DNA of 21,644 nucleotides from a virus, in the IMG/VR virus record IMGVR_UViG_3300047560_000424, positions 1 through 21,644 of that record, one strand, 5' to 3'. The translations under genes and the position numbers were made by a program. Below are positions 1-17,881 of the stretch, piece after piece. Every line of letters starts with the position of its first letter. Within the stretch, counting starts at the first letter, position 1. A model generated the notes under the pieces. The model was not told where the DNA came from. It saw nothing but the letters and a program-made list of their open reading frames with translations, and did no database searches.

Positions 1-127
1 CGCTGCGCAGTTGTTCATCTGCTGAATCCATTTATCCTGACCTTTATGCACCATAGTCTTGTTGTCGAGAGCGTTCTTTAGATCCGTGCAAGCCGTATAG
101 AACGCAGCGCCGGATATGTCTTGGACT
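1..127. repeat. 127-bp exact repeat at the window start (partner 16595-16721)
   Basis: Bases 1-127 are identical to 16595-16721, and base 128 (G) differs from 16722 (A). The repeat lies inside the terminase gene and is the first part of a roughly 4.6-5 kb diverged homology. An exact repeat that begins at the first base of the window and ends at the first polymorphism, with length 127, is what a de Bruijn assembler with k=127 produces at a branching node. I regard it as an assembly seam of a circular or permuted genome, not as a biological terminal repeat. Confidence 0.9.
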
Positions 128-1287
128 GCCTGACCGGATGTGGCTAGGCGGTCTGCGATTGTTTGGGTAGCGTACTTATCGAAGCAGATCATACGAGGGC
201 GGTATTGGTCAGCCCAAGCCTTGATGTCTACGGCAATCTTGAGGTCGTCTACCGAGACTTGGCTCTCCCACGTTTGTAATAGTCCAACTCCAATTCTACC
301 ATCCGGGAGAATCTGCCCAGCAACCAGAGACGCATTCCTACGAGACGGATTGACGTCGAAGGCGAAAACCGTGTAACCGCCGGGTGGAATTTCCAGGTTA
401 GCGTCAGAGCAATCTTCAATAGAGCCATGAGTCCATGGAGACTGGAGCGACGAAACCCAAGTGCAAAGGAGCTCCGTTTTGGTGTTTTCGATTGGCGAAG
501 TCGCAACTGATTCTTCAAGGGTCTCCTCTGTGATGGTATGACCGAGAGCTGGGTTAGCCTGTTGCCAAGCTTTCCTGTCCCATATATCGGCGGTTGGTTC
601 TGCTGAGTATTCATAGAAGCCGAAGCTCTTAGGTGGAGACTCTAACGCGCGCTGTCTCATATCATTCAAAACGGTTGAAAAACTATCACCGGCGTTGCTA
701 GTCAGCCATATATGAGCATTAGGACGAGCTCTGGTTACTGGCGTAGCAGCTCTATAGGCTTCTTCGCCCCATTCACGCAACTCATCGAGGAAGAGAGCGT
801 CTGCGGTACGACCACGGGCTCCGTCACGGGTTGCAGCTACGATGTCTAAGCGTTGTCCTGTTTTCATCTCAATACACTCAGTACCGTTGGCATAACGGAT
901 AGCCTTGACAAGTGCCATCAGGTTCTCGTTGGACTCAAAGACCTGTGCTACCTGTCTAAATGTATCAAGAGCCATAGCACGGTTAGAGCTAGCAATAATG
1001 ACATTCTTGGACTCCCATTTCAGTAGGTGGGCGAGGATAAGCATACGGGTAAGGTGAGTCTTACCATTCTGACGGGCTACGAGGATGAGGTTGGTCTTCC
1101 TAATCCACTTGCCTTCCTTGTCTACGGTCAGCGCGTCACGTAGGACGTGTTCCTGCCAAGGTAGCAACGGCATCTTAATAAGGTTCGCCAGCTCTATTAC
1201 GTCGTCTACCTTCGACTGACCCTTCAGGGGTGTGTTGGAGAGTCTAGGGGCAACTTTCCCCTGTAGTGGTTTGGTTCGCGCCGCCAT
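1..1287 (-). CDS. terL: Terminase large subunit, copy A (partial at window edge)
   Basis: This is the ATPase and nuclease motor that packages DNA into the prohead. The window holds codons 1-429; the C-terminus runs off the left edge. I read the frame from base 1287 to base 1 in triplets and found no stop. It aligns with the complete copy at 16460-17881 without a single indel (constant offset 16594), and most differences are synonymous. The ATPase motifs (ARQNGKT near residue 71, ADALFLDE near 162) and nuclease aspartates are retained. Joining base 1 to base 16594 would restore a full 473-residue protein in frame, so the truncation looks like a contig-end effect rather than a broken gene. The start overlaps the HNH stop (TGATG). 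Confidence 0.95.
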   Translation of the reverse strand, partial: MAARTKPLQGKVAPRLSNTPLKGQSKVDDVIELANLIKMPLLPWQEHVLRDALTVDKEGKWIRKTNLILVARQNGKTHLTRMLILAHLLKWESKNVIIASSNRAMALDTFRQVAQVFESNENLMALVKAIRYANGTECIEMKTGQRLDIVAATRDGARGRTADALFLDELREWGEEAYRAATPVTRARPNAHIWLTSNAGDSFSTVLNDMRQRALESPPKSFGFYEYSAEPTADIWDRKAWQQANPALGHTITEETLEESVATSPIENTKTELLCTWVSSLQSPWTHGSIEDCSDANLEIPPGGYTVFAFDVNPSRRNASLVAGQILPDGRIGVGLLQTWESQVSVDDLKIAVDIKAWADQYRPRMICFDKYATQTIADRLATSGQAVQDISGAAFYTACTDLKNALDNKTMVHKGQDKWIQQMNNCAA

Positions 1288-1628
1288 CAGTCATGACCGT
1301 TCTGGTTTGGTTTGAGCTTAAACGGGCTGTCATCGGCTGGAATCGAGCGCATTGGAGAGATAAAGGAAGAAAAGACAGGGGGGGTACGCTGGCTCTGCAA
1401 AAAAAGCCCCTCTGAGCGTGAACCCTTGCGTGAGTTGCATGACACACAACACGCCACCATATTGTCAAGCCCTACTGGGTCGCCACCCTTCTTGATTGGT
1501 ATCACATGATCCACAGTAGTAGCAGGTTGTTGGCAGTAATGACACGTCCACTCATCTCTAGCCAATACAACCTTACGCATTTCTCTATACTTACGAGATA
1601 GACGAGGGTCACCTTTCTTAGTTGCCAC
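1287..1628 (-). CDS. HNH endonuclease, copy A
   Basis: Small HNH nuclease, 113 residues. Seen: CHYC, then TVDHVIPIKKGGD, then NMVACCVSCNSRKG, that is two CxxC zinc knuckles around the catalytic DH and N residues. In HK97-like phages an HNH protein encoded beside terminase is needed with TerL for cutting and packaging DNA, and this one touches terL (TGATG). I chose the GTG start at 1628 because it aligns with the ATG start of copy B and gives the same 113-residue length. ATG codons at 1646 and 1643, or the far upstream ATG at 1697, would add a hydrophobic N-terminus absent from copy B. The last 40 residues are low complexity and lie over an unusually conserved DNA block. Confidence 0.85.
   Translation of the reverse strand: MATKKGDPRLSRKYREMRKVVLARDEWTCHYCQQPATTVDHVIPIKKGGDPVGLDNMVACCVSCNSRKGSRSEGLFLQSQRTPPVFSSFISPMRSIPADDSPFKLKPNQNGHD
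1352..1427. other. 76-bp block identical between copies A and B inside the HNH tail
   Basis: Bases 1352-1427 match 17946-18021 without a mismatch. The 92 bp on the left side carry five mismatches and the right side diverges quickly. The block holds a G7 run and an A7 run on the plus strand and encodes the low-complexity C-terminal tail of the HNH protein. Conservation at synonymous positions suggests a second role in the DNA or RNA, for instance a packaging (pac or cos) site beside terL. Recent recombination is the alternative. Confidence 0.4.
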
Positions 1629-1707
1629 AGGCTTCACACCCATCATGATGGCAACAGCAATTGCAATTAGCAGCACCCCAGCATCCAGCACACTCATCGC
1701 ATTCCAT
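1618..1707 (-). CDS. Cys-rich 29-residue microprotein (unit A only)
   Basis: A 29-codon ORF with 9 Cys and 2 His: Cys at residues 3, 6, 9, 15, 17, 18, 19, 24 and 27, His at 20 and 21. The pattern is CxxCxxC, then CxCCCHH, then CxxC, which suggests metal binding. Its ATG overlaps the stop of the SLT gene (TAATG), with AAGGGG about 8 bases upstream as ribosome binding site. Its stop lies just inside the start of the HNH gene. Copy B has exactly the same arrangement (TGATG, same ribosome site, end inside HNH) but with an unrelated 64-residue protein. That shared slot is the main argument that this tiny ORF is real. The competing reading is a hydrophobic extension of HNH in another frame. No homologue is known to me. 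Confidence 0.6.
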   Translation of the reverse strand: MECDECAGCWGAANCNCCCHHDGCEACGN

Positions 1708-2138
1708 TAGTGCCACCCCTTCTGTTGCCAATGCTTCCATGCTTTACACATATCACCTTTGTATTGGCTTCTCTGTCGAATATAGTCTATACCAGCATCT
1801 ATCTGCTGCACTGCATTCATTAAGCCAACCTCTGGGTTCTTCAATTGAGGTATGCCGTAAGCCTGCTTCTTTCCTTCTATGTTTCCTATTGCATATCTAT
1901 TAAATGCTGATTCTTTTCCATATAACTTAATTAAGCATAGAGCTTGTGGTTTATCTAAGATAGATCGTATATATGCTTTAGGTTCGATGGCATCTAGTGA
2001 ACCATTCTCTGCAGGACTCGCTCCGAAAGACATAGCTCCCACCAATGCGATTGCAACCCCGCAAGCTCGCGCCCTCAGGCGCTTGCGGTGAGCCTTTGAG
2101 AGGCTCTTGCAAGAGAGCATATCATGGTAGTCAAGCAT
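1707..2138 (-). CDS. Exported SLT-type lytic transglycosylase, copy A
   Basis: 143 residues. A basic N-terminus (KAHRKRLRARA) precedes a hydrophobic stretch (residues 26-42) ending in ASPA, which looks like a signal peptide or membrane anchor. The rest resembles the lysozyme-like SLT fold: YGKESAFN with the probable catalytic Glu76, AYGIPQ near 94, a repeated-helix segment and a C-terminal W..WQQKGWH. Such enzymes cleave peptidoglycan between MurNAc and GlcNAc. It is encoded in the early block, far from the endolysin, so a role in wall opening during infection, or a second lytic activity, is inference. Start ATG at 2138 has GAGG 8 bases upstream. The C-terminal 25 residues differ strongly from copy B. 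Confidence 0.75.
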   Translation of the reverse strand: MLDYHDMLSCKSLSKAHRKRLRARACGVAIALVGAMSFGASPAENGSLDAIEPKAYIRSILDKPQALCLIKLYGKESAFNRYAIGNIEGKKQAYGIPQLKNPEVGLMNAVQQIDAGIDYIRQRSQYKGDMCKAWKHWQQKGWH

Positions 2139-2187
2139 GTGTATAACCTCGGCGTGTCTTGAGCGTGTTCGATAGTTTCATGCACAC

Positions 2188-2220
2188 TTATCCACAGGTG
2201 TTGATAACTATCTGTTATCA
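2188..2220. promoter_or_regulatory. DnaA-box-like inverted pair and hairpin
   Basis: TTATCCACA at 2188-2196 (plus strand) is a perfect match to the classical DnaA box. It is followed head-to-head by TTATCAACA on the minus strand (2199-2207), so the 20 bp form an imperfect palindrome. Overlapping it, TGATAAC and GTTATCA (2202-2208 and 2214-2220) form a perfect 7-bp inverted repeat with a 5-base loop. The site sits in the 69-bp gap between the FmdB and SLT genes and is absent from copy B, where a gene fills the gap. It could be a host-DnaA binding site or origin element, or simply a terminator or operator. Confidence 0.4.
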
Positions 2221-2399
2221 GTTGAGTAGAAGCCGGTTCCCTTGAATATAGCTGCTGGAACGCTTGAGTAGACCTTATTCATAGGCTCATCACAGAACGG
2301 GCAGTCAATATCATGAGGCTCGTTGATTGCTAGAACGTGATCTAGGATAGCCGTGGACTCGCAGTCCTCATTACGGCATTGGAACTCATAGGTTGGCAT
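2208..2399 (-). CDS. FmdB-type zinc ribbon protein, copy A
   Basis: 63 residues beginning MPTYEFQCRNEDC, then CPFCDEP, and ending TGFYSTDNR. This is the typical layout of the FmdB family of putative regulatory zinc ribbons: an N-terminal PxYeF, two paired-cysteine motifs, then a Val-Pro-Ala turn and a short tail. The molecular role is not established; proposed functions are nucleic-acid or protein binding. It is separated by 12 bases from the upstream nuclease gene and is nearly identical to copy B, which shows purifying selection. The TAG stop lies inside the hairpin at 2202-2220. Confidence 0.85.
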   Translation of the reverse strand: MPTYEFQCRNEDCESTAILDHVLAINEPHDIDCPFCDEPMNKVYSSVPAAIFKGTGFYSTDNR

Positions 2400-2411
2400 T
2401 ATCGAGCTTGC

Positions 2412-2849
2412 CTATCGGTAGTGATGTTCGAGTATTTTACATACATGACATGGTGAGCCTTTCATAATCGTGTTACCGCATTTGCAGTAGACAGGCTCAA
2501 GTTTATCAGTGTCATCTTGGAAATCAGTGTAACCAGCCTTGATAAGTAGCTGCACCAAGTCGCTGAACTTCATAAAGCTTAGATACTCCGCCGCATCCTC
2601 GCCCTGTCCATTCATACGGCACACAACGACGTTTAATTCGCCGTTCTTCTCCGTGCGCTTACGACTTTGGCGCAACCACTCTAACGGTTGGAAGGCTGTC
2701 CTCGCCTTCACTTCTATATCCATAGGGATATTCACTATGTCTTTACCGTTGCCACGCCCTACAGCTGCACCTGTCCACCATTGGGATAGATACTGGGCTA
2801 CGACCCGTTCTGTACGCAGTCCTCGGTGTTTGCGTGACTGAGATGGCAT
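2412..2849 (-). CDS. PD-(D/E)xK-type nuclease with C-terminal zinc ribbon, copy A
   Basis: 145 residues. An N-terminal helix (TERVVAQYLSQWW) leads to GRGNGKDIVNIPMDIEVKAR, where Asp37 and Glu46-x-Lys48 fit a PD-(D/E)xK nuclease core of the kind found in phage Holliday-junction-resolvase-like proteins. The C-terminus has CKCG and CHVC, a probable zinc ribbon. Together with the putative annealing protein upstream in the operon it may resolve recombination or replication intermediates before packaging; that link is inference. Protein and DNA are almost identical in copy B (changes at FMKF/FLKF, DDT/ADT and CKILEHH/CEILKHH), the strongest conservation of the early block. Confidence 0.75.
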   Translation of the reverse strand: MPSQSRKHRGLRTERVVAQYLSQWWTGAAVGRGNGKDIVNIPMDIEVKARTAFQPLEWLRQSRKRTEKNGELNVVVCRMNGQGEDAAEYLSFMKFSDLVQLLIKAGYTDFQDDTDKLEPVYCKCGNTIMKGSPCHVCKILEHHYR

Positions 2850-2854
2850 TCTGG

Positions 2855-3109: not shown

Positions 3110-3379
3110 CTATGCCAACTCCTTCTCAATAGCCTGAATAGTTGGGCAGGGATAAATAACCCAATACTTAGGGTCTTTCGAATGCGAGCATTCGAAACAC
3201 ATAAGGCTTGGGAGTTCTAAGTAATTGCCAGTCCGTTTGAACGGTACTGGATGATGTACTTCCACTATTGCACGAAGGGCATTAAGTATGCCAAGTTCTG
3301 CTTTGTTATTTCGACCAACCATTTTAACGACATTTTTTATATATCCGTCTATCTTTGCCAGCAATTCATCGTGTATCAT
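3110..3379 (-). CDS. Small Cys protein with YPCPTIQAIEKEL tail, copy A
   Basis: 89 residues from the ATG at 3379, which overlaps the stop of the annealing-protein gene (TAATG) and has GAGAGG upstream. A longer reading from 3433 would lie inside that gene and is not conserved. The N-terminus MIHDELLAKI and the C-terminus YPCPTIQAIEKELA are shared with the 85-residue protein of copy B, while the middle is highly variable. CFEC near residue 61 plus the PC motif could bind a metal. A similar PCxTI tail occurs in small proteins of other actinobacterial phages as I remember them. Function unknown. Confidence 0.8.
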   Translation of the reverse strand: MIHDELLAKIDGYIKNVVKMVGRNNKAELGILNALRAIVEVHHPVPFKRTGNYLELPSLMCFECSHSKDPKYWVIYPCPTIQAIEKELA

Positions 3380-4074
3380 TACCATTTCCTCTCTTGTGGC
3401 TTCCATGACCCATCGGCTGCAATCTCGTACCAATTAACGGTGTCGCATCCCGAGCCGGTGGACTTATTCCATACGCTGCACTTGAAATGACCCCACGGCT
3501 TATTGTTCTTGCCTACGCCAGTCTTCCAGACCATTTCCTTACCGCACTTGCAATAAGGAATATCTCGCTCAGTCTGACCGCCGATAATGTCCTTGACTAT
3601 TGCAACCGCTTCATCGACTGTTGCAGCCGGCTTAGCTTCTCTAATAGTCCAAGGATCATCTTCCTTAGCAATAGGAACGTATTCCTTAGCAGTCTGAGAC
3701 ATCTTCGCCTTGGCCTCTGCGATAGCATTCTCAGCCGTAGCCTTTGCAACTACCTTTGTCATTTCTTCACGGCTCGCTCGCTTGCCTTTGGTCGCATATC
3801 CAGCGTTAGCCAAAGCGCGACCAATAGCAGAAGTCTCACAGTTTTCGAGAGCTGACGTCGCATTAACTCCGCGCCCTTGAACGGTTTCCTCGGCGAGTCC
3901 AGTAGCCCACGGTGCACTATCTTCATGGCTGCGATATATAGCTGCCTCGACAATAAATCTGCTAGCCGAGGACTCAAGTAGCCGAGTGAAGATACGACCT
4001 TGCGGGTTATCTTTCCAATATTTAACGAGACGTTCTTCAACAGTTTCATAGTCTTCAAGATTAAAGAACGCCAC
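3379..4074 (-). CDS. Putative single-strand annealing protein (ERF/Rad52-like), copy A
   Basis: 231 residues. The N-terminal domain contains a conserved core, VNATSALENCETSAIGRALANAGY (about residues 70-93; only the CETSAIGRALANAGY part is diagnostic), that resembles the core of ERF-like single-strand annealing proteins. An Ala/Lys/Glu-rich helical linker follows (about 98-130). The C-terminal domain carries CKCG and further Cys residues with a Trp-rich end, likely a zinc-binding module. Such proteins pair complementary DNA strands during phage recombination. The assignment rests on memory of the motif and is moderate; the gene itself is certain, as it is conserved in copy B at full length. 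Its start overlaps the preceding 51-residue gene. Confidence 0.6.
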   Translation of the reverse strand: MAFFNLEDYETVEERLVKYWKDNPQGRIFTRLLESSASRFIVEAAIYRSHEDSAPWATGLAEETVQGRGVNATSALENCETSAIGRALANAGYATKGKRASREEMTKVVAKATAENAIAEAKAKMSQTAKEYVPIAKEDDPWTIREAKPAATVDEAVAIVKDIIGGQTERDIPYCKCGKEMVWKTGVGKNNKPWGHFKCSVWNKSTGSGCDTVNWYEIAADGSWKPQERKW

Positions 4075-4609: not shown

Positions 4610-4674
4610 TTTCTGCCCTTCCGCGCAGTATCTCTGCGACAAGAAGAACTTTACCGGATGGCTGGGCGGTGTCG

Positions 4675-4704: not shown

Positions 4705-4712
4705 TAAAACAG

Positions 4713-4927: not shown

Positions 4928-5674
4928 TTAGCGAGCGCGTCCGTAGCGCTTGCCTGAGACAACGAACGTACCGTCCTTTTCGATATAGATGAGATCAACT
5001 TGAACGTTCTTCTTATCGACGTACATAATGGCGAAAGCCTGTTGCCAGTTGAATACGCCCTTGGTGTATGCAGCTTGTCGGGTATCCATGAGATGCCCCA
5101 CCTCTACGCCATGCAGGATACGCCCTACACGCCCCCCAGAAGCCTCTGTGAAGCTCGAACGCCCTGCTCGGTGGGTATGACCTGAGATTACGTTCTTTCC
5201 GCGCCTACGAGCCCCTTCAAGGGCTGATAAGCCCCCCTGTGGCTTGATAGGGGTATGGTCACCGTGGACTGCTACCCAGTTGGGAGCGATATTCATTGGC
5301 TCTTTGTGGAACTTGATGCCTAACTCATCCATTTTCATGAACCGCTCGAAGCGTAGTTCTGGAAGTGAGCCTAAGGCTGGAATCTTTGAGGAAATTTGAT
5401 TATAGAGGCGGTCTGTGTGGTTGCTACGGATCATGTCCGTTACTTGTAATTCCCAGAGTATGTCGACCGTCCGGTTGCGGTTCTCGTCTAGGGTCTGAGC
5501 GAACCAGTCTGCCTTGCCTTCTGACCAACGCCCTAGCTCCTGCATATCCATCTCGTCACCTATGGTAACGACTTGGTGCGGCTTAAATCGCTTTATAAAT
5601 TGTGCTACATTTTTAACTGCCACCGTATCTTCATAGGGTACTTGAAGGTCGCTGACTATTACGATTCGCTTCAT
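4928..5674 (-). CDS. Calcineurin-like metallophosphoesterase
   Basis: 248 residues with the full motif series: SDLQVPYED (residues 8-16), GDEMDMQE (39-46), RSNHTDR (83-89), HGDHT near 137 and SGHTHRAG near 164. These supply the Asp, Asn and His ligands of the two-metal centre of this superfamily, although Gln replaces the usual His in the first motif (DLQ instead of DxH). The substrate is unknown; phage members may hydrolyse phosphodiesters in nucleic acids or nucleotides. The start overlaps the stop of the 73-residue gene (ATGA). It is the last gene of the late operon before the control region. Only one copy is present in the window. Confidence 0.85.
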   Translation of the reverse strand: MKRIVIVSDLQVPYEDTVAVKNVAQFIKRFKPHQVVTIGDEMDMQELGRWSEGKADWFAQTLDENRNRTVDILWELQVTDMIRSNHTDRLYNQISSKIPALGSLPELRFERFMKMDELGIKFHKEPMNIAPNWVAVHGDHTPIKPQGGLSALEGARRRGKNVISGHTHRAGRSSFTEASGGRVGRILHGVEVGHLMDTRQAAYTKGVFNWQQAFAIMYVDKKNVQVDLIYIEKDGTFVVSGKRYGRAR

Positions 5675-6082: not shown

Positions 6083-6228
6083 TTCTTGTGGTCGATGGCA
6101 TCTACTGCTGCTTCGATAGCATCTACGGCAACGTCGGCAATTGCCTTCTTTGCACGGTATGAGTTAATAGCTGCGCGGATAGCAGGTAATGCTGCGATGC
6201 CACACATAGCGAATATTGCTGTTTTCAT
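6079..6228 (-). CDS. Small 49-residue protein of the lysis cassette
   Basis: ATG at 6228 overlaps the endolysin stop (TAATG), and its TGA overlaps the next gene's GTG. The N-terminus MKTAIFAMCGIAALPAI is hydrophobic (membrane or short signal-like), followed by RAAINSYRAKKAIADVAVDAIEAAVDAIDHKK without its last residues, an Ala-rich amphipathic helix. It lies between endolysin and the holin-like gene, so it could be a second holin component, an antiholin or an inner-membrane accessory. It was too short for a usual ORF threshold, but start and stop coupling on both sides support it. Confidence 0.7.
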   Translation of the reverse strand: MKTAIFAMCGIAALPAIRAAINSYRAKKAIADVAVDAIEAAVDAIDHKK

Positions 6229-6656
6229 TACTTACCCCCTAAGAGCGGAATGTTAAAGAACGTAGAATCGAGATCGCCCTTTGAGGTAAAGCTAATATGG
6301 CAGTGATGGTTGTGCTTATTAGCCCCATCGTAAGGACGCCAAGCCCAAGACTTCTTAGCTGAGGCAATGCGTCCATCGAAGATGACATAGGCAATGCGCT
6401 TGTCTCCTGCCTTTGCGCATAGCCGTATCTGATCAGCAATATCGGGCATGAGGTCGGGCTTAGCCTTTCCACTGACATCTCTATCGACATCGATGGCTCG
6501 TACAACCTCAGTTGGTGCAGCAGGGTTGTGGTCGCTAGGACGCGATGCGTGACGTGTGTCGCCAATCCATCCATCGGAAGTACGATCTCTATCGGGAAAG
6601 GTGTCATCGAACTGTTCCCTTAACTGTTGTCCTGCTTTACTTAGCCATGGCTTCAT
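6228..6656 (-). CDS. Endolysin, M15-type zinc peptidase
   Basis: 142 residues from ATG 6656 (MKPWLSKAGQQ), chosen because GAGG lies about 9 bases upstream; it overlaps the previous gene by 20 bases. The chain carries RPSDHNP (His43), AIDVD (Asp56) and HCHISF (His120), the zinc ligands expected for the peptidase M15 / VanY-like fold. Such enzymes cut peptide bonds in the peptidoglycan stem peptide. There is no separate wall-binding domain and no signal peptide, so release would depend on a holin, and candidate membrane genes follow directly. Annotations as D-Ala-D-Ala carboxypeptidase or L-Ala-D-Glu peptidase are both possible. Confidence 0.8.
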   Translation of the reverse strand: MKPWLSKAGQQLREQFDDTFPDRDRTSDGWIGDTRHASRPSDHNPAAPTEVVRAIDVDRDVSGKAKPDLMPDIADQIRLCAKAGDKRIAYVIFDGRIASAKKSWAWRPYDGANKHNHHCHISFTSKGDLDSTFFNIPLLGGK

Positions 6657-6954
6657 TAAAACTAGCCTCACAATCGGAACATTGCCACAATTTGTTATCA
6701 TTCAAGAGTAGGTCTTCATGACCGCAATCAGGCATAGGTGGGATAAACGCATCATCTATAAGATCATAAAAATAGCCAATACCTGCATAGTTAAAACGTA
6801 TTCTGCCATTATAGGAAGTTCTGACACATTTTTGACCTCGGTAATTTCCGTACCATTCTTCTGGTGTCAAACCTTCTATAAGTTCAGTTTCGTCTTTGCC
6901 TACGATAACTTCAGTAACGATATTGCTATCATCCAAAAATGCATAATGAGCCAT
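6637..6954 (-). CDS. Conserved phage tail-region protein with Cys-rich C-terminus
   Basis: 105 residues: MAHYAFLDDSNIVTEVIVGKD, then SYNGRIRFNYAGIGYFYD and DAFIPPMP. This is a common small protein family of aquatic phages, found beside tail-fibre genes, without known function (a MAHFAxLDxNNxV start and a NYAGIGYxYD motif are its hallmarks). Unlike members I recall that end soon after the IPP motif, this one continues with CGHEDLLL and CSDCEASF, a possible zinc ribbon. The start overlaps the end of the Gly-rich gene (ATGG within TTTAATGG). Confidence 0.75.
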   Translation of the reverse strand: MAHYAFLDDSNIVTEVIVGKDETELIEGLTPEEWYGNYRGQKCVRTSYNGRIRFNYAGIGYFYDLIDDAFIPPMPDCGHEDLLLNDNKLWQCSDCEASFNEAMAK

Positions 6955-7838
6955 TAAACAGTCACCGTTCCTGTTCCTGCAGTAAACTGGTAAATCTTAT
7001 AACTGCCAGAAGTGGTCTTTGTATAAGTCAAGCCACCGCTAATGGTTGTTAAATCAGGGTATGAAGAAAGATAACGGATAATCACAATTCCTGAACCGCC
7101 ATTACCACCGTCATTGTTTGTAGTGTGCCCGTCGTTTCCACCGCCGCCACCGCCGCCGCCACCAGTGTTAGGTGTTCCGTTTGTGCCGTTTCCGAAATTT
7201 TGTGCGGCAGCACCACCACCGCCTGTTCCACCAGCTCCTGCTGTGCCGTTGTAATAAACACCACCGCCGCCACCGCCGGCATAAGTTACTGAAGAACCAC
7301 TGTATGAAGAAGATAAACCGTTTCCGCCTACGCCGCCAATTAAAGAACCGCCAGTTAGATCAACAGCAGCTGCTCCTGCACCGCCGCCACCGCCTGAACC
7401 GTAGTTACCAACATTAGCCGCTGGCGCGCCTTTCGCGCCATCGTTACCTTGACCGGCAGTTCCAGTTCCGAAAGAGTTGGTTGAATGAATGCCACCACCA
7501 CCTGAACCACCATTACCTGCAGACGCTCCAGAGTTTCCGTTTCCGCCGCGTCCACCGCCTGTTGCAGTAAAGCTAGAGAAAACAGAGTTAGTGCCGTTGG
7601 TAGAAGCGGTTGTAGAAGATTGAATACCACCTGCGCCACCTGCGCCAACGGTTATTGTGAATGAACTAGGAAGAGAATAAGATGCAGCAGTTACAAAACC
7701 ACCTGCACCGCCACCACCACCGACGAAGTAACCGCCACCGCCACCGCCGGCAACAATTAAATAATCAGCAACTGCTGAAGTTGGTGTAGGTAGCCCTTGA
7801 ATGCCGCTAATACAATTAAGCAATTGCGCCCACCACAT
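6954..7838 (-). CDS. Glycine-rich tail protein
   Basis: 294 residues from ATG 7838. After about 25 residues comes ADYLIVAGGGGGG, followed by some 190 residues of Gly-rich repeats (GGGGGAGG, GGGGGG and similar) separated by short Ser/Thr/Asn segments, then a compact C-terminal domain (GSGIVIIRYLSSYPD) ending TAGTGTVTV. Such poly-glycine-II type domains occur in phage tail fibres or tips and can mediate host contact. The reading frame upstream of 7838 is a shadow of the preceding gene, so the start lies at or below 7838. No clear ribosome site precedes it; the 23-base overlap suggests coupled re-initiation. Confidence 0.7.
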   Translation of the reverse strand: MWWAQLLNCISGIQGLPTPTSAVADYLIVAGGGGGGYFVGGGGGAGGFVTAASYSLPSSFTITVGAGGAGGIQSSTTASTNGTNSVFSSFTATGGGRGGNGNSGASAGNGGSGGGGIHSTNSFGTGTAGQGNDGAKGAPAANVGNYGSGGGGGAGAAAVDLTGGSLIGGVGGNGLSSSYSGSSVTYAGGGGGGVYYNGTAGAGGTGGGGAAAQNFGNGTNGTPNTGGGGGGGGGNDGHTTNNDGGNGGSGIVIIRYLSSYPDLTTISGGLTYTKTTSGSYKIYQFTAGTGTVTV

Positions 7839-8199
7839 ACCAAGTATTAGCAGCGACCTGCATAAGCGCGCAGCTCTTGTATTGGTTGAGAACTGGAGAA
7901 GCCGCAGTTGCACCAGCTGAGAGGACTGTAACGCCACCTGCACCTGAGATAGTGACTGCTCCTGCGCCCTTATTGAGTACGGTGATGACTGTACCGACTG
8001 GGAAGGCTACTGAGGCATTGGTTGGGATAGTGAGAGTAGATGCTGACGCGTTAGATCGTGTGATGAGTACCTGATACTGGTCAGTAAGGACAGGGGTGTA
8101 TGAAGTGCCTGTCTGGTCATTCAGCGTGAACGCTACTAGCCCATTAAACATAGCAGCTGTGAGGATGTCACCTGTCGCCGCCGGAAAGCCTGTGCTCAT
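7816..8199 (-). CDS. Small tail-associated protein
   Basis: 127 residues: MSTGFPAATGDILTAAMFNGL, then TPVLTDQYQVLITRSNASAS and WYVVGAIA at the end. The Ser/Thr/Val-rich beta pattern and the MSTGFP...GDILTAA start recall small proteins found beside tail-fibre genes in aquatic phages. A role as fibre base or tip decoration is inferred from its place between the minor tail and Gly-rich genes. A strong ribosome site (AGGAG, 7 bases upstream) precedes ATG 8199. The stop TAA lies 23 bases inside the next gene in another frame. Confidence 0.7.
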   Translation of the reverse strand: MSTGFPAATGDILTAAMFNGLVAFTLNDQTGTSYTPVLTDQYQVLITRSNASASTLTIPTNASVAFPVGTVITVLNKGAGAVTISGAGGVTVLSAGATAASPVLNQYKSCALMQVAANTWYVVGAIA

Positions 8200-8208: not shown

Positions 8209-9453
8209 CTAGTATGTCATCGCAGATACGCCTATTATACCGCGTTCTGAGTTTCCTATAATGAATCCATCGGTTATGGGTTCTAGTGTTGTTACGGTGC
8301 AATACATAGACTGTGGGGTGATTTCCCACTTGAGTCCTTGGCACTGCAAAGTCTTGTTAATGGTCGAGCCGTCAGGCTGGACGTTGGTGATATGTAGGAC
8401 GTCAAAGTAATCAAGCCCAATAATGGTATTGGTTGGAACTGCTGGATCTAGCAGGTTAATCTTCATTGCGTCGATGCGAATGGTTGTCTCAGCACGGGTA
8501 GCTACATAGGTCGCAGCGATATTGGCTGCTGCTTCGTCTGTGTCGATAACCAATTCTTGCACTGAATACTGATGTGGGAAGTAGCGAGTAGCCGAAGCGG
8601 TGTTCTCGTAGAACTGCTGAGTGCCACCAATACGGGTAATAGCCGCTTGGTTGATAATGAGCTTATCGTCGAAGGCGAAGACTAGGTTGGCGTATGGAAT
8701 GCCGGTGGTCTGGTTAAACTCGATAGGGGTTTGAGCAATTGACTGCTGGACACTGTGACGGCTCTTGAATACCGCTGTGCCTGAGCCGTTGATGTAGAAC
8801 GCGCCCTGCTCGGAGAACTCTACATTCTTTAGAGCTGCAAGGCTGGTGCGAAGGGTTGATGGATCAGCTTGAACTGTTGCCTGACCTTCGTCAAGAATGC
8901 GCATATTGGACGGGAACTGGACTGCATCCAAGAGCTTTGCGATACGTGTTCCGCTTGGCTGGTCGCTTGATGCGTGTTCTACAAGCTGAACCTGAGAGAG
9001 CTGAAAGAGACGGAAAGCATCCGCGCAGTAAATATCGACATAGGCAGTTTCTTGGTTGATTGGGTAGTGGTAGCGATACTCGGTAGTATATCCAGAAAAC
9101 AAGAATTCCTGCCCTGAGGATGTAGTAGCACTCACACGGAGCTTGCGTAGAGGCACGAGATAGCCGTAGTAAGGCGATGAGGTGTTCTGAGGGTTAAAGT
9201 ATGAGTCAGGGTCTAGAACGCGTACGACGGCTGTTCCAGCGATATATTGGTCTTGCTGGATATTACGACCACGGTCAATAGTAATCTGATAGACGTTTGG
9301 AGTCAGGTCTACTACTGGAGCAGCAGGACTTGAACCGGCTAACTGAGAGACTCCCAGAACGCCGTACTTGCTATCGCCAATAGTAAATGGGTAGCCGAAA
9401 GTCGCTCCTGATGAGAAGTCGAAGCTGACGGATATATTGGCAGGTAAAGTCAT
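8209..9453 (-). CDS. Minor tail protein (tail tip/hub region)
   Basis: 414 residues directly after the tape measure gene, the usual place of distal-tail and tail-hub proteins. The N-terminal part (MTLPANISVSFDFSSGATFGYPFTIG is the first segment, here noted by its first and last residues) is beta-rich. Residues 60-150 include DRGRNIQQDQYIAGTAVVRVLDPD and FLFSGYTTEY, resembling the receptor or baseplate-hub core found in actinobacterial phage minor tail proteins. The C-terminus LEPITDGFIIGNSERGIIG echoes the N-terminal GDSKYGVLG segment. No enzyme motif is seen. The exact structural class (Dit or Tal) cannot be settled from sequence alone. Confidence 0.75.
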   Translation of the reverse strand: MTLPANISVSFDFSSGATFGYPFTIGDSKYGVLGVSQLAGSSPAAPVVDLTPNVYQITIDRGRNIQQDQYIAGTAVVRVLDPDSYFNPQNTSSPYYGYLVPLRKLRVSATTSSGQEFLFSGYTTEYRYHYPINQETAYVDIYCADAFRLFQLSQVQLVEHASSDQPSGTRIAKLLDAVQFPSNMRILDEGQATVQADPSTLRTSLAALKNVEFSEQGAFYINGSGTAVFKSRHSVQQSIAQTPIEFNQTTGIPYANLVFAFDDKLIINQAAITRIGGTQQFYENTASATRYFPHQYSVQELVIDTDEAAANIAATYVATRAETTIRIDAMKINLLDPAVPTNTIIGLDYFDVLHITNVQPDGSTINKTLQCQGLKWEITPQSMYCTVTTLEPITDGFIIGNSERGIIGVSAMTY

Positions 9454-11051
9454 TAGAAGTCGAAGCCACCTGTACGACGGTTAATGTAAGTCTGATTACC
9501 TGACAAAGACTGATCCATAAGGGTCGCAGCAATAGTCTTTCCGTCAATCTGAATTACCACCGGCGGAACTACATCTGTAGAAGAACTGCTGCTAGAAGGA
9601 CGGTAGTTGTCTAGAACACTGCCACCAGTGGCTGGATTGCTATAGAAGTCATAGCTACCTGTATATCCAGAGCCGTTAGCAGCTCCGCCACCTGCATAGG
9701 TGCTCACGCCAGCTGAAGTAATTCTTTTAACCTGTTCCTCAATTGCGTCGAGATATGACTGCCAGTTCTTGAAAGGGTTATTGGCATCTGGCAAAGTCTG
9801 CAGGTACTTAGCAAGGTTGCCAGTCTTGTCAATTGAGTTGGCAATCTGAGTAGATAGGCGAGAGGCTTCTTCTTCATTGCCTTGCAATAGAGCCAACTGT
9901 AGAAGTACGCGATTGCGATCTTCTTCGGATAATTTACCCTTAAGAGCTGCGACAAGTTCAATCTGCTGAAGGTCGAATAAAGCAGACTGCTTCTTAACCA
10001 GTGACTGTTCTTTGAGTGCCTTGGTATTGGCTTGCTGAGCCTTCAGGATGGCTTGAGCGCGCTTCTTAGCGTCTGCTTCAGCCTTTGCCGCCTTAGCTGC
10101 GTTAGCGGTTGCCATATGGTCATTAAGGAATTGGTTAGCAGAAGCAGGAGCAAGGGCAGAAGATTTAGCCTGATTAGCCTTCTTCTTCGCTGCATTGAAT
10201 AGAACCGCAAGACCAGAAGTCTTTACTGCTGCGCTGAATGCCTGAGAGAGTAAACCCGCTCCAGGAATCTTTTTAAGTTCGCCAATCATGAGCGAGATTC
10301 CAGTGGTGACATCTGCTGCCTGAGTTGCAATGTTACCCATAGCATCGGCTACTCCTTGAACATCACCTTGCTTACCTGCGAGGATTGTCAGGGAATCTAC
10401 TAGACCTTTACCGATAGTCTCCTTGGCTTCACCTGCAGCGGTGTTTAGTATGTCCATTTTGCCCGCGTAGGTGGCTAGGTATGCTGCAGACGATCCTGAG
10501 AACTGGGCATTGAGCTTTGTCTGGATATCTGTGAATGATGTGGCTTTAAGTTCTGCCTGAGTAAGACCTAGGTTGTACTTCTTGAGCCCCTTAGTATTGC
10601 CCACAAAAGCGTTATTTAAGTCCTGTACGACTGTGGCTAGTTCAACGCCAGAGCCGCGAGAGATGTCAATAGCCTGAGCGAGAAGTTTCTGAGAACCAGC
10701 AAGTGAGCCAGTAGTAGTTAGAAGTGTCTGCATAGCAGGACGAAGTTGGTCGTCTGCTACTCCAGCAGCCCGAGAGAGCTTGCCGATGAATGTTTCAATT
10801 TCAGGATTAGCGAATTGCAATCCTAGGTTCTTCATGGTGTTAGCCAAGAGAGCCGCTGACTTCTGGTCTTCCTCAAATGCTTTAACTGAAGCCTTGCCGA
10901 ATGCGTAAATCTTCTGGGCAGCGAATACTCCAGCAAGTTGCTTGCCTAGTTTGCCTACTGCCTTCTCAAGTCCACCAACGGACTTTCCAGCCTTATCGAA
11001 TGCTGCTTTACCTCTGAACTCCGAAGCAATGTCAATCGTTACGTTAGCCAT
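9453..11051 (-). CDS. Tape measure protein
   Basis: 532 residues from ATG 11051 (MANVTIDIASEF), which has GAGG 4-5 bases upstream; ATG 11063 would add four residues. Mostly helical and Ala/Lys/Gln/Glu-rich. It begins with a conserved actinophage-type segment (AFDKAGKSVGGLEKAVGKLGKQL in part), has a hydrophobic central part near residues 240-290, a long coiled coil (KAAKAEADAKKRAQAILKAQ and beyond) and a Ser/Gly C-terminus. It sets tail length; at about 0.15 nm per residue the tail would be about 80 nm. It overlaps the minor tail gene by one base (position 9453) and the upstream gene by 8 bases. Confidence 0.9.
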   Translation of the reverse strand: MANVTIDIASEFRGKAAFDKAGKSVGGLEKAVGKLGKQLAGVFAAQKIYAFGKASVKAFEEDQKSAALLANTMKNLGLQFANPEIETFIGKLSRAAGVADDQLRPAMQTLLTTTGSLAGSQKLLAQAIDISRGSGVELATVVQDLNNAFVGNTKGLKKYNLGLTQAELKATSFTDIQTKLNAQFSGSSAAYLATYAGKMDILNTAAGEAKETIGKGLVDSLTILAGKQGDVQGVADAMGNIATQAADVTTGISLMIGELKKIPGAGLLSQAFSAAVKTSGLAVLFNAAKKKANQAKSSALAPASANQFLNDHMATANAAKAAKAEADAKKRAQAILKAQQANTKALKEQSLVKKQSALFDLQQIELVAALKGKLSEEDRNRVLLQLALLQGNEEEASRLSTQIANSIDKTGNLAKYLQTLPDANNPFKNWQSYLDAIEEQVKRITSAGVSTYAGGGAANGSGYTGSYDFYSNPATGGSVLDNYRPSSSSSSTDVVPPVVIQIDGKTIAATLMDQSLSGNQTYINRRTGGFDF

Positions 11052-11550
11052 GAGCCCTCGCATTTAACTTATCTGCAGCGCTCTCGATAGCCTTTAGAAC
11101 GGCTTGCTGAGCCTTGCCTTGGTTTTCTTCCCATGCCTTGTAAATCATGCGACCTTTACCAGCTGGGGAAGTTGTCAGCGGTACTAGATGCGGTACGAAG
11201 TTACCGCCTATTTTCTTGCGTCCTGCTGTCTCATAGATAGCACCTGCAGCGGTCTTATTGTTAATCTGAGCAAGAGCGACGAACCCACGACGGTTAGGCT
11301 TAGAAGGTGTTGTCTTGTATCCAATACCGCGCTTAACTTCTCCAGAGTCGAACTGAGGGAACTTAGCAGCAGAATCAGGGCGCTTGACCCATCCGCTCAA
11401 TGGAGCAGGAGCTACGACATAACCCTTAGCCCTAGCCGTGATTGGTTTAAGGATAAGGGCTATCTCGCGTGTGGTCTCTTTGCCTAGGTCAGGGGTAAAC
11501 TTCTTAAGAGCCTTGCGGAGTTCAAGACCGCCTTTTACGGTTGCTGCCAT
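11044..11550 (-). CDS. HK97 gp10-like neck/tail component (putative)
   Basis: 168 residues, basic: MAATVKGGLELRKALKKFTPD, then RAKGYVVAPAPLSGW and GAIYETAGRKKIGGNFVPHLVP, then a C-terminal helix. The layout (amphipathic helix, then YE.. and G-rich turns) resembles HK97 gp10-like tail-completion proteins. In many phages that gene lies upstream of the tail tube gene; here it sits between the chaperones and the tape measure, which is uncommon but seen in some small actinophages as far as I recall. A strong ribosome site AAGGAG precedes ATG 11550. The frameshifted chaperone product ends 29 bases inside it. Confidence 0.6.
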   Translation of the reverse strand: MAATVKGGLELRKALKKFTPDLGKETTREIALILKPITARAKGYVVAPAPLSGWVKRPDSAAKFPQFDSGEVKRGIGYKTTPSKPNRRGFVALAQINNKTAAGAIYETAGRKKIGGNFVPHLVPLTTSPAGKGRMIYKAWEENQGKAQQAVLKAIESAADKLNARAHG

Positions 11551-11968: not shown

Positions 11969-12388
11969 TTAGAAGCTACCTGATGTAGTGACAGCTACTG
12001 TACCACTGACGTTCCAAGTAACGCTCTGAGTTGAGAGGTCGCCTGTCGCGCCGTTGATGTCTGTTGTTCCGTTGAGGAGAACAGTCATTGTGTAAAGTGG
12101 GTTTGTCGCTGATACTGCTGTTCCCTTGTTCTGCAAGAGTACGACAGTTACGTTTGTTCCCCATGCAGCTTGAAGTGTCTGAAGAACAGATCCTGTAGCT
12201 GTATCGTTGAGGAAGTCGAGTGTGATAGATGAAGCCTCAAGACCCTTGATGAACTTGTGACCTGAGTCACCCATTGCTGTTACTTCGAGTTCGTCGAAGT
12301 TGCGGTTGAGGGTGATGTTGTTAACGTGGTCAGAGAGGTCGACAGAGTTAACCTTCACGCCTACGCCATTATTTAGAAATACTGCCAT
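11969..12388 (-). CDS. Major tail (tube) protein
   Basis: 139 residues, beta-rich: VKVNSVDLSDHVNNITLNRN, then ELEVTAMGDSGHKFIKGLEAS, then SITLDFLNDTATGSV and a C-terminal TQSVTWNVSGTVAV. This is the common pattern of siphovirus tail tube proteins: an N-terminal D-L-S-d-h strand, an E.T..GD.... loop and a W.v.G.v C-terminus. It lies between the connector genes and the chaperones as expected. It should be among the most abundant virion proteins. GAGGAATAACCAAATG offers a ribosome site. Confidence 0.85.
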   Translation of the reverse strand: MAVFLNNGVGVKVNSVDLSDHVNNITLNRNFDELEVTAMGDSGHKFIKGLEASSITLDFLNDTATGSVLQTLQAAWGTNVTVVLLQNKGTAVSATNPLYTMTVLLNGTTDINGATGDLSTQSVTWNVSGTVAVTTSGSF

Positions 12389-13575: not shown

Positions 13576-13595
13576 TGTGATCCTTTCAATTTAGA

Positions 13596-13633: not shown

Positions 13634-13651
13634 CGTACTAGGGGTTCGCTA

Positions 13652-15277
13652 TTAAGCGAGGTTGAAGCGACGAACGCCAGCAGGAATGAGAACCTTACCT
13701 GCGCCGTAGCCGTAGATTGCTGTCTGAACGCTCATTGAGTTAACAACGTTAACTGAGAAGAACGCCTCAGGTGACTCCCACCAGTAAGCTGTCTCTGGTG
13801 CGATGATGAATGCTGACTCGTCGATAAGACCAGCTGTTACGTTCTTATCAACGTACAAGTCCAAGCCCATGACCTGACCCTTGATAGATGTAGGCTTTGC
13901 CTCACCTGCAGAGTTCCATGGTGTTGTAGTTGTAAAGAGTGGGCGTCCTGTTGAATCTAGAGCGCCGATCAAGTTAGACCACCAGTCAGTGTTGGTAACG
14001 ATGCGGTCTGCGAAGTATGAAGAACCCTTATAAGCTGCAGGTGCTTCAGTAGCGATGTATGAAATCATGCCAGCAGTTGTACCTGCAACGCCTGTTGCCT
14101 GTGTTCCCTGTGCTGTCAAGATTGCGACCATTGCGTTATCTGTTGCGAGCTTGTAAGCGCGCTCAAGCTGAATTGCAAGCTGGTCGAAGAAGATTGGGTC
14201 TGAACGCTCGAGAAGCTCGAGTGAGATTGTCTGCTGTCCAGCGTACTTGTTGATAGTTACTGACTCGTAAGCAGATGTCATTCCTGTATCTGATGGAGCT
14301 GCTGATTCAGCTGTTGCTGCAACTGTTGGAGCAGTTGAAGAACCGCCACCTGCAGATGTAACCAATGAAGGGATGTTCATTGTTAGACCAGATGCTGGAA
14401 GTGTACCGCGTGAAACTGCGTCGATTGTTGGACGACCGAAGTTTGTGTTAGATACGAAGTTTGAAAGGTACTGAATTGGGTTGAACGCAGGGTTAGTAGA
14501 CATTGAATCCGCTGCAGCCTGAACTGCCTTTGGATCTTCTGCTGCTGCTACGTACTGACGTGATGTATCGTCACCGAGAGCTGCCTTAACCTTATGCTCA
14601 ACGTACTTACCCATAGACACGATGTCGTGGCGTGGAGTAGTTGAATAAGGTGCTGCTGCCTTGATGATTGGGCGTGAGGCTTCTGCTGCCGCTGCTGCCT
14701 CAGTTGTTGCGGTAGTTGTATCTTCTGACACAGCTGCCTCACTTTCTGTTGATGGGGTTTCCTCTGCAACCTCTACTGGTGCAGAATCTTCTGGTGTGAC
14801 TTCTTCTGTCACTTCTTCGCCTTCTGATGCGACTACTTCGAGAACACGTGCCTCGGTAAATGCTGGAGACTCTACGAGAGAGACTTCCTTGAGAACTGCT
14901 GATGAAACAATGATGACGCCATCCTTACGCTCGCGAGATGCAAGGACTTCAACGCCAACTGATAAACCGTCGATAAGACCTTCAGACGCCATAACCAAGT
15001 AGTCCTGAGCCTTAGAAGCTGCAGAGAGCTTGAATACGCCGTTGATGCCCTGAGCGGTCTCAGCAAAAGATTGAGCGCGTCCGATTGGATCGTTAGTGTT
15101 GTGCTGTGCAAGTAACTTAATCTTGGAAGCTGATGGGATCTGAATTGAACCGCGCTCAAAGATGACGTGCCCTGCTGATGTGTTACCGATTGCACCGAAA
15201 GGAACAATCTGTCCTGAGACGATGCGACGCTGACCGTCTGCTGCCTCGATTGGTGCGCTAAATGTCAGGTGTTGCAT
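13652..15277 (-). CDS. Prohead protease-major capsid protein fusion
   Basis: 541 residues. Residues 1-150 are an HK97-type (S78-like) prohead protease: LLAQHN (His59), IDGLSVGV (Ser106) and LKEVSLVESPAF (Glu131), the expected catalytic series. Residues 150-200 are an acidic Glu/Ala/Thr linker that may act as internal scaffold. From about residue 205 to the end the chain fits an HK97-fold capsid protein (SRGTLPASGLTMNIPSLV; later ETAYWWESPEAFFSVN). Usually protease and capsid are separate genes, but fusions are known in some small actinophages. Self-cleavage after assembly near residue 200-260 would release mature capsid protein. It overlaps the portal gene by 20 bases. Confidence 0.9.
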   Translation of the reverse strand: MQHLTFSAPIEAADGQRRIVSGQIVPFGAIGNTSAGHVIFERGSIQIPSASKIKLLAQHNTNDPIGRAQSFAETAQGINGVFKLSAASKAQDYLVMASEGLIDGLSVGVEVLASRERKDGVIIVSSAVLKEVSLVESPAFTEARVLEVVASEGEEVTEEVTPEDSAPVEVAEETPSTESEAAVSEDTTTATTEAAAAAEASRPIIKAAAPYSTTPRHDIVSMGKYVEHKVKAALGDDTSRQYVAAAEDPKAVQAAADSMSTNPAFNPIQYLSNFVSNTNFGRPTIDAVSRGTLPASGLTMNIPSLVTSAGGGSSTAPTVAATAESAAPSDTGMTSAYESVTINKYAGQQTISLELLERSDPIFFDQLAIQLERAYKLATDNAMVAILTAQGTQATGVAGTTAGMISYIATEAPAAYKGSSYFADRIVTNTDWWSNLIGALDSTGRPLFTTTTPWNSAGEAKPTSIKGQVMGLDLYVDKNVTAGLIDESAFIIAPETAYWWESPEAFFSVNVVNSMSVQTAIYGYGAGKVLIPAGVRRFNLA

Positions 15278-16442
15278 CTGGAACTGACTCCTCTGGCTCT
15301 TGGTCGGTTGGTTCTGGAGACTCGTTACCGTCTGGTGTCAAGCCTTCCATTTCTTTAGCTTGGTTAAGGTCGATAAGTTGAAGCTGTAAGAGCTTCTCTG
15401 TCACTGCCAAGCGGTCTTGTGGGTTAGCACGAAGGAAAGTTTCATCCACGGCGAATCTCACGACTTGACCACGTGGAGTGATGTCATCTAGTGATAGACG
15501 GTCTTCAATAGCATTGATATATGGAGCAAGGCTGTAAGCCATAAACTCTTTGCGCTGATCCAATACGTTCTGATAAGTTGAAGAACGGTTGTGTTCTGCG
15601 TTAATCATTGCGGCAGGTATATTTAGCATTCTTGCTATTTGCGCCGCGAGTTCCTCTGCAGAATCGTTGTACGTCATTTCTGCTGGTGAGTAAGATGTTG
15701 GAACGTACTCAAGAGTAGAAGTTAAGTAAGCAGTTGAGCGAGAATTACGAGCGTTCTTCCAAGAATTGAGAAGACCTTGAATCATGTTTTCAGGAAGGTC
15801 TGCGCCGGTGTTCTTAAGGTATCCGGTTGGCTGTGGAGAAGTCATCGCTACATTGATTGCATTCTCTACGTTGATTGCGCTGTTAATGGTGCGCTGACCC
15901 TTTAATAATAGCCCTTGGTCAAAGGCTTGGAATGTCACAAGACTTCCAACACCTGAATCTGGAACACGTGTGCCGTTGACCATGTAGTAGTCAACTTCTT
16001 GAGTCATTGGGTCGAGTTTTGTTGAAATTCGATTGTTCTGTACCCAATGGAAAGATGCTGGGCGTTGGTCATCAGCGAAGACGCTATCGACCTGCCAGAA
16101 AGCTTGACCATAATAAATGAGGCTGTCAACCGTCCAAGCAATTGTTACGGAACGAGGAGCGCGTGAATCTGGCTGATTAATCCACGCGGGGAAGACGTCA
16201 AGTTCTTCACCAGTGCGAGATGAATAAACTTCTAGTGGGATACCTGCAATAGTTCCCTTGATGAGTTGAACGCATTGTGAAACTGCTGGCACGGATGCTG
16301 CAGCTTGGCGATCTACTGGAGAAGCCCAGTTGTTCCAACCGCCGAAGTTACCCATTGAATAGGATGAGCCGAAAGGCGCATCGTAGACTGCTGGATTTAC
16401 CTGAGCGGTAATTTCCTTTGGCTTGCGGTTAAAGATACCCAT
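15258..16442 (-). CDS. Portal protein
   Basis: 394 residues of the HK97-like portal family: MGIFNRKPKE at the start, VSQCVQLIKGTIAGIPLEVY near 55, DSLIYYGQAFWQVD near 105, LLLKGQRTINSAINVENAI in the wing or stem part, and LNIPAAMINAEHNRSSTYQN followed by the crown helices. It ends in an acidic Pro/Glu tail (PEPTDQEPEES). Twelve copies form the vertex through which DNA passes, docked by terminase. Somewhat short for the family, in line with the small genome. There is no ribosome site before ATG 16442; a perfect TATAAT lies just upstream. Confidence 0.9.
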   Translation of the reverse strand: MGIFNRKPKEITAQVNPAVYDAPFGSSYSMGNFGGWNNWASPVDRQAAASVPAVSQCVQLIKGTIAGIPLEVYSSRTGEELDVFPAWINQPDSRAPRSVTIAWTVDSLIYYGQAFWQVDSVFADDQRPASFHWVQNNRISTKLDPMTQEVDYYMVNGTRVPDSGVGSLVTFQAFDQGLLLKGQRTINSAINVENAINVAMTSPQPTGYLKNTGADLPENMIQGLLNSWKNARNSRSTAYLTSTLEYVPTSYSPAEMTYNDSAEELAAQIARMLNIPAAMINAEHNRSSTYQNVLDQRKEFMAYSLAPYINAIEDRLSLDDITPRGQVVRFAVDETFLRANPQDRLAVTEKLLQLQLIDLNQAKEMEGLTPDGNESPEPTDQEPEESVPDATPDI

Positions 16443-16451
16443 AGACCGCTA

Positions 16452-16457
16452 ATTATA
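16452..16457 (-). promoter_or_regulatory. TATAAT hexamer just before the portal start
   Basis: The minus strand reads GAATAGTGTATAATTAGCGG, with a perfect TATAAT at 16457-16452. Transcription would start about 7 bases further, near 16445, only some three bases before the portal ATG (16442), which has no ribosome binding site. Leaderless mRNAs are common in Actinobacteria, so this may be a late promoter for a leaderless portal transcript. No TTGACA-like -35 is seen, so it may be chance. Confidence 0.3.
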
Positions 16458-16459
16458 CA

Positions 16460-17881
16460 CTATTCACCGACATAAATCGTTGGCATTTGCTGTGGTTTAA
16501 CCAGTTGTGTCACAACCATCGCTGTAGCAATAGCTCCAGAGATGTCGCCACCGCTTGTACGCTTCACAATACGCCATGACGAGTCGTTGGTCTTCGCTGC
16601 GCAGTTGTTCATCTGCTGAATCCATTTATCCTGACCTTTATGCACCATAGTCTTGTTGTCGAGAGCGTTCTTTAGATCCGTGCAAGCCGTATAGAACGCA
16701 GCGCCGGATATGTCTTGGACTACCTGACCGGATGTGGCTAGGCGGTCTGCGATTGTTTGGGTAGCGTACTTATCGAAGCAGATCATACGAGGGCGGTATT
16801 GGTCAGCCCAAGCCTTGATGTCTACGGCTATTTTTAGGTCGTCTACCGAGACTTGGCTCTCCCACGTTTGTAATAAGCCGACTCCAATGCGACCATCCGC
16901 GAGTATTTGCCCAGCAACCAGACTCGCATTCCGGCGACTAGGATTGACGTCGAAAGCGAATACCGTATAACCGCCGACTGGAATCTCAAGAGAAGCGTCA
17001 GAACAGTCCTCAATAGAGCCATGCGTCCACGGAGACTGTAGAGACGAAACCCAAGTGCAAAGAAGCTCTGTCTTGGTGTTTTCGATTGGTGACGTAGCAA
17101 CTGACTCTTCAAGGGTCTCCTCTGTAATGGTATGACCGAGAGCAGGGTTTGCTTGTTGCCAAGCCTTACGATCCCATATATCGGCGGTTGGTTCTGCTGA
17201 GTATTCATAGAAGCCGAAGCTCTTAGGTGGGTTTGATAACGCTCTTTCCCGCATATCATTAAGCACCGTACTGAATGCGTCTCCTGCGTTACTGGTGAGC
17301 CAGATATGAGCATTAGGACGCGCTCTAGTGACCGGCGTTGCCGCTCTGTAGGCTTCTTCGCCCCATTCACGCAACTCATCGAGGAAAAGAGCGTCAGCAG
17401 TACGACCACGCGCTCCATCTCGGGTTGCAGCTACGATGTCGAGGCGTTGACCTGTTTTCATCTCAATACACTCAGTACCGTTGGCGTAGCGGATGGCTTT
17501 GACGAGTGCCATGAGGTTTTCGTTCTGCTCGAATACTTGTGCTACCTGTCTAAATGTATCAAGAGCCATAGCACGGTTAGAGCTAGCAATAATGACATTC
17601 TTGGACTCCCATTTCAGTAGGTGGGCGAGGATAAGCATACGGGTCAGGTGGGTCTTACCGTTCTGACGAGCTACGAGGATGAGGTTGGTCTTCCTGATCC
17701 ACTTGCCTTCCTTGTCTACGGTCAGCGCGTCGCGTAGGACGTGTTCCTGCCAAGGTAGCAACGGCATCTTAATAAGGTTCGCCAGCTCTATTACGTCGTC
17801 TACCTTCGACTGACCCTTGAGAAGTGTGTTGGAGAGTCTAGGGGCAACTTTCCCCTGTAGTGGTTTGGTTCGCGCCGCCAT
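16460..17881 (-). CDS. terL: Terminase large subunit (complete; junction of unit A and segment B)
   Basis: 473 residues. ATPase domain: Walker A variant ARQNGKT (71-77), Walker B ADALFLDE (162-169) and a TSNAG coupling motif (196-200). Nuclease domain: AFDVNPS (Asp311), ICFDKYA (Asp370) and GGDISGA (Asp446) supply the metal-binding acids. It packages DNA through the portal. The 44 C-terminal codons (16460-16594) belong to unit A if the circular model is right; codons to the left of the first difference (16722 and up) are of segment B. Copy A (1-1287) has the same protein length without indels. No small terminase subunit was recognised nearby. Confidence 0.95.
   Translation of the reverse strand: MAARTKPLQGKVAPRLSNTLLKGQSKVDDVIELANLIKMPLLPWQEHVLRDALTVDKEGKWIRKTNLILVARQNGKTHLTRMLILAHLLKWESKNVIIASSNRAMALDTFRQVAQVFEQNENLMALVKAIRYANGTECIEMKTGQRLDIVAATRDGARGRTADALFLDELREWGEEAYRAATPVTRARPNAHIWLTSNAGDAFSTVLNDMRERALSNPPKSFGFYEYSAEPTADIWDRKAWQQANPALGHTITEETLEESVATSPIENTKTELLCTWVSSLQSPWTHGSIEDCSDASLEIPVGGYTVFAFDVNPSRRNASLVAGQILADGRIGVGLLQTWESQVSVDDLKIAVDIKAWADQYRPRMICFDKYATQTIADRLATSGQVVQDISGAAFYTACTDLKNALDNKTMVHKGQDKWIQQMNNCAAKTNDSSWRIVKRTSGGDISGAIATAMVVTQLVKPQQMPTIYVGE
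16595..16721. repeat. 127-bp exact repeat, internal partner of 1-127
   Basis: Identical to the first 127 bases of the window; homology continues to 21572 with substitutions and three gene-sized indels. Position offset is 16594 through terminase and HNH, rising to 16930 at the DUF6378-like genes because segment B carries extra genes. See the partner entry for the assembly-seam interpretation. Confidence 0.9.

Follow-up and report, generated by a model that had tools for sequence, protein, structure and literature searches.

A probable lasso contig of a small uncultured tailed phage and a putative packaging site within its HNH endonuclease gene

Introduction

The HK97-type packaging pair consists of an HNH endonuclease (gp74) and the large terminase. 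Among the small actinobacteriophages, with genomes of 14.8-17.3 kb, the genes run in the order terminase, portal, fused protease-capsid and tail, and the HNH gene is the last one, adjoining the right genome end, with a T-tract upstream of that end in most of them. We compared representatives of Microbacterium cluster EE (Orlajensenviridae, e.g., Noelani, 17,349 bp) and Arthrobacter cluster AN (e.g., Decurro, 15,524 bp), together with Atraxa, Kels and Gordonia phage Rahul. In cultured cohesive-end phages, the 3′ extensions measure 8-11 bases for Microbacterium and 9-13 for Arthrobacter (PMC7302621, PMC5513430).

Here we describe a metagenomic relative of this general type, IMG/VR record IMGVR_UViG_3300047560_000424, and call the whole analysed stretch of 21,644 nucleotides the window. 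It shares the gene order of the small actinobacteriophages, and its phage fits the EE/AN-like type by a genome in the 14-18 kb range and a fused protease-capsid protein. Part of its structure probably reflects its assembly. For metaSPAdes, a study in which k reached 127 describes contigs that break at branches of the graph, the overlaps between their ends being equal to the maximal k (PMC10914622).

Results

The first 127 bases of the window are identical with bases 16595-16721, and the first mismatch is found at base 128 (against 16722). Direct comparison thus bears out the sequence-only reading, which had pointed to an exact 127-bp repeat starting at base 1. As the virus record is itself exactly 21,644 bases long, base 1 is a genuine contig end. 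Homology extends past the seam, with 90% identity across 128-1600 and further exact runs in the vicinity (107 and 106 bp), and similarity runs to the end of the window with offsets shifted by indels (16594, 16681, 16769, 16930 and 16963). The repeat and the similarity continuing to the window end together show that the window comprises a single lap of a genome plus approximately 4.9 kb of a related copy (Table 1). With homology continuing in this way, a 127-bp run alone is not very rare (0.9^127 comes to about 1.4e-6 per fixed start, but identity differs locally). What chance does not explain is its start at base 1 together with a length that is the most frequent one among the end overlaps of related contigs.

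Table 1 Features of the window
Feature	Positions	Strand	Evidence or remark
Seam copy 1 (graph node), at contig start	1..127	.	exact 127, next base differs
Seam copy 2, within terminase	16595..16721	.	exact match; end overlaps of related contigs most often have this length
One full genome lap, strain A, circular map 16,594 bp	1..16594	.	repeat; equals cos-to-cos distance
Strain B path: second terminase, HNH, right-arm genes	16722..21644	.	~78-91% identity in matched blocks; L103 overlaps
Terminase large subunit A, truncated by contig end	1..1287	-	in-frame closure 16594 to 1
HNH endonuclease ORF spanning cos, first copy	1287..1697	-	PF01844 E=2e-10; in frame through cos
cos, first crossing, putative 13-nt overhang CCCCCCTGTCTTT	1371..1383	-	relatives' ends; left end starts 1370, reading leftward
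Probable tape measure protein	9453..11063	-	size and position only; no family match
Major tail protein	11969..12388	-	phrog_4574 E=2e-22
Fused prohead protease - major capsid protein	13652..15277	-	PF04586 + PF05065; phrog_2263 E=4e-55
Portal protein	15258..16442	-	PF04860 E=1e-34
Terminase large subunit B, complete, 473 aa	16460..17881	-	PF03237 E=3e-9, PF03354
HNH endonuclease ORF of strain B, likewise across cos	17881..18225	-	ORF; AlphaFold model
cos, second crossing, putative 13-nt overhang CCCCCCTGTCTTT	17965..17977	-	16,594 bp from first

We then surveyed every exact match starting at a contig end among the fetched related contigs. The modal exact end overlap is 127 bp, with 68 hits (some of them double-counted, as a few contigs occur with two identifiers). 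Two contigs, L084 and L094, close on themselves with a 127-bp terminal repeat, giving units of 16,873 and 15,751 bp, and L096 is a second lasso, in which the first 127 bp recur at 16,855 before the copies diverge (unit 16,854). Contig L103 shares exactly 127 bp at one end with window 18934-19060 and then diverges, its opposite end overlaps window 6215-6340 by 126 bp rather than 127, and it shares an exact 516 bp with window 21129-21644, continuing where the window stops. Judged by these matches, L103 behaves as another strain, drawn from the assembly graph of the window or from a sibling one. By exact search, the first 127-mer of the window is absent from every other contig in the collection, so that this node is confirmed directly by no neighboring contig. 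The modal overlaps, the two closures, the second lasso and the 127-bp end of L103 all favor the earlier proposal of a de Bruijn node, and we infer that k was 127 in the assembly of this record; the 126-bp overlap of L103 and the missing 127-mer count against it. Like the k-sized overlaps described for metaSPAdes (PMC10914622), the overlap in the window would have exactly the maximal k and lie at a branch; unlike them, it joins the contig end to an internal position of the same contig, as in a lasso, rather than to the end of another contig.

The 127-bp overlap pattern in relatives, taken together with L103, indicates that 1-16594 is a full lap and that 16722-21644 derives from a related strain. 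Both parts had been proposed from the letters alone. The completeness of the first unit is supported by a lap length equal to the cos-to-cos distance of 16,594 and by the genome lengths of relatives (15.6-16.9 kb), and the assignment of the remainder to a related strain's path by the diverged matching blocks and the overlap with L103. Closing the lap also restores terminase A in frame, as predicted, giving an ORF of 473 aa with only the terminal stop and 97.9% identity to terminase B. In the compared part, the differences between the two terminases fall mostly at the third codon position (19, 11 and 89 by position), and both look like working genes. In the right arm of strain B, near 20250-20323, part of a gene-end segment occurs a second time, the segment being single in strain A (3111-3154, 19875-19918 and 20251-20294; and 3350-3393, 20102-20145 and 20280-20323), a mark of small duplication or gene replacement.

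The contigs of relatives also place the genome ends. Many of them start 83 nucleotides upstream of the terminase start. In the full set of fetched contigs with an end close to this site, the left end is exactly the base following one 13-mer in 18 of 21 cases, and the right end is the base preceding it in all seven (a further right-end pattern match in L256, an unrelated sequence, was excluded). The same 13 nucleotides (CCCCCCTG[T/C]CTTT) are absent from both contig ends. Five contigs of relatives, each close to full length, have both of their ends at cos (L083, 16,415 bp; L085, 16,841 bp; L087, 15,607 bp; L093, 15,847 bp; and L095, 16,800 bp); the 13 nucleotides read CCCCCCTGTCTTT or CCCCCCTGCCTTT in cos-spanning contigs and are missing at both ends of all five. 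Their loss from both ends can be attributed to the trimming of a 3′ overhang during library end repair, whereas a 5′ overhang would have been filled in, leaving the 13-mer on both ends; a 13-nt 3′ overhang is therefore probable. Coverage trimming could explain the loss instead, but the exactness of the ends argues against it. The fixed contig ends in relatives point to a virion genome that would be linear with fixed cos ends, not permuted. The complete lap of the earlier description is thus supported, but "circular or permuted" as the virion form is not, as the ends of relatives are fixed at cos. In this way the relatives reveal the site of packaging in a widespread group of uncultured phages. 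A 55-mer approximating the cos region of L017, with its first bases inexact, gave only chance-level matches in cultured phages.

The cos site is located inside the HNH ORF, which sits between the right-arm genes and the terminase. In the first copy, the HNH stop overlaps the terminase start (TGATG), and the true HNH start may be nearer 1631. In L083, the HNH codons are divided between the two contig ends, with residues 23-104 at one and 110-132 at the other. The HNH frame is open into cos in 144 of 156 distinct cos contexts, in one phase throughout, and the cos-encoded peptide T-P-P-V/A-F is found in nearly all of the 144. The frame remains open for more than six codons in 136 of them, several of which run off the contig, as do the other eight; where stops are reached, they lie 25-47 codons after cos entry and none is within cos. 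The cos-in-HNH layout is conserved across well over a hundred related contigs. The codon-3 excess is 0.189 (vs 0.118 and 0.104) beyond cos and stronger before it (0.314 vs 0.107 and 0.071), a pattern as would be expected for a translated, loosely constrained tail. In the AlphaFold model of the strain B HNH protein, the core residues 11-70 are confident (block means 85-96), confidence beyond residue 70 is low (52-63), and cos corresponds to residues 83-87. Since the confidence is confined to residues 11-70, the part before cos is predicted to encode the whole HNH fold; beyond cos, disorder is predicted for the tail, which may be dispensable. Literature searches, thin on subscription journals and hence weak evidence, gave no publication that places a cos site within an HNH gene.

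It is also evident that some relatives change type at cos. L063 is ~73-88% identical with L185 up to cos and ~43-68% beyond it; in comparison with L043, it is 87-100% identical beyond cos and only 40-63% before. L113 shows similar mosaic behavior. These mosaics may have arisen by real cohesive-end exchange, by ligation during library preparation, or in assembly. Discordant pairs number 8 and 5 at cos, none at two internal boundaries of the left arm, and 30 at an internal boundary of the right arm. Frequent recombination exactly at cos, in its strong form, was set aside because the right-arm boundary gives more discordant pairs. One contig longer than a lap (G017 or L091/L092, 21,365 bp) combines the right arm of one type with the full genome of another; the join is exactly at cos (L091:5425), and the contig also ends exactly at cos.

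Outside the packaging region, the product of window 6954-7943 is rich in glycine, contains repeats of ACCGCCGCCACC (repeat family D8), matches phrog_2295 and is possibly a virion surface or fiber protein. The right-arm genes at 1707-2138, 2412-2849 and 4928-5674 match transglycosylase, RusA-like resolvase and metallophosphoesterase families.

Discussion

We consider it very probable that the window is a metagenomic lasso contig of a 16,594-bp tailed phage, assembled from multiple strains, whose packaged genome is linear and cos-ended. Several strains of this small phage would have co-occurred in the sample, and an assembler with k=127 would have left a branching node at 16595-16721; strain mixing is the probable cause of the branch. 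The assembler would then have walked strain A once round the circular map to the node and continued into strain B. For the contig to span cos, DNA with joined ends would also have been sequenced, as circles, as concatemers or after re-annealing. The seam is mostly explained as a feature of the assembly, and base 1 marks a branch of the graph rather than an end of the genome. The record thus exceeds the genome, whose length is 16,594 bp; neither additional genes nor a terminase duplication should be read into 16722-21644.

Three other readings have to be weighed against this one. A genuine tandem concatemer, in which two diverged genomes lie in one molecule (e.g., after co-infection) and were recovered as one contig, would account for the two crossings of cos with the cos sequence intact each time, and G017 does join two phage types exactly at cos. 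The seam of the window, however, lies within the terminase rather than at cos and is exactly k long, and near-complete relatives are single-lap with few exceptions, which makes a concatemer improbable. A circularly permuted headful genome would be recovered as a complete lap, without fixed ends, and the self-closure of the contig is what it would produce; yet the contigs of relatives stop at one exact base per side, with a conserved 13-mer between these ends. Permuted or headful packaging was rejected on the fixed ends, and we regard it as somewhat less probable still than the concatemer. Least credible of all is that the 127-bp identity is a biological repeat, whether conserved terminase sequence or the junction of a recombination event, with a coincidental length. 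Other exact runs, of 106-107 bp, in the same region speak for it, but the repeat starts where the contig starts, its length is the most frequent among the end overlaps of relatives, and that length recurs at an end of L103. The lasso contig thus remains our preferred reading.

The main interest of this locus is not the seam but the conserved cos-in-HNH layout. We infer that the HNH protein acts in cos cleavage: the terminase and the HNH nuclease would cut at CCCCCCTGTCTTT (1371-1383 and 17965-17977), leaving 13-nt 3′ overhangs. In our judgment the chances are about even that, in this large, uncultured group of small phages, the packaging cut falls within the HNH gene, so that the gene would be intact only when the genome ends are joined and would be split again by packaging, and that joining of cohesive ends in co-infection could pair the HNH domain of one phage with the tail and terminase of another. 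The layout raises the question of whether a packaging nuclease, by cutting the gene that encodes it, is regulated or has its tail reassorted.

The host is probably an actinobacterium, judging indirectly from the nearest cultured matches, which are mostly actinophages, and from a metagenome-assembled genome (MAG) labelled uncultured actinobacterium UppL4_bin-798. The latter contains L275 (CAIXTG010000145.1, 15,902 bp), which has the same cos CCCCCCTGTCTTT; this MAG is a possible host lead, the binning of phage contigs being weak. In gene order and in the layout of its ends, Pseudomonas phage Hadban (L278, OR067381.1), recorded from P. aeruginosa, matches the small actinobacteriophages.

In sequence, the window phage is remote from the small actinobacteriophages, with ~30-42% identity in the capsid protein over the first ~145 aa and ~27-30% in the terminase to the hits listed, and no cultured member of its group was found in this analysis. 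Seven cultured small phages have a complete HNH gene whose stop lies 20-105 bp before the right end, whereas the HNH frame of the window runs through cos; they also have at least one gene between the left end and the terminase, whereas the terminase of the window is 83 nucleotides from the end. As the cultured HNH genes are complete before the right end, the split layout sets the uncultured group apart from those seven. The putative packaging pair of the window, known by adjacency and family match, resembles that of the HK97 type (gp74) in that the HNH gene directly adjoins the large terminase gene at the cos end, but differs from it in the position of cos, which here falls inside the HNH coding sequence instead of adjoining it.
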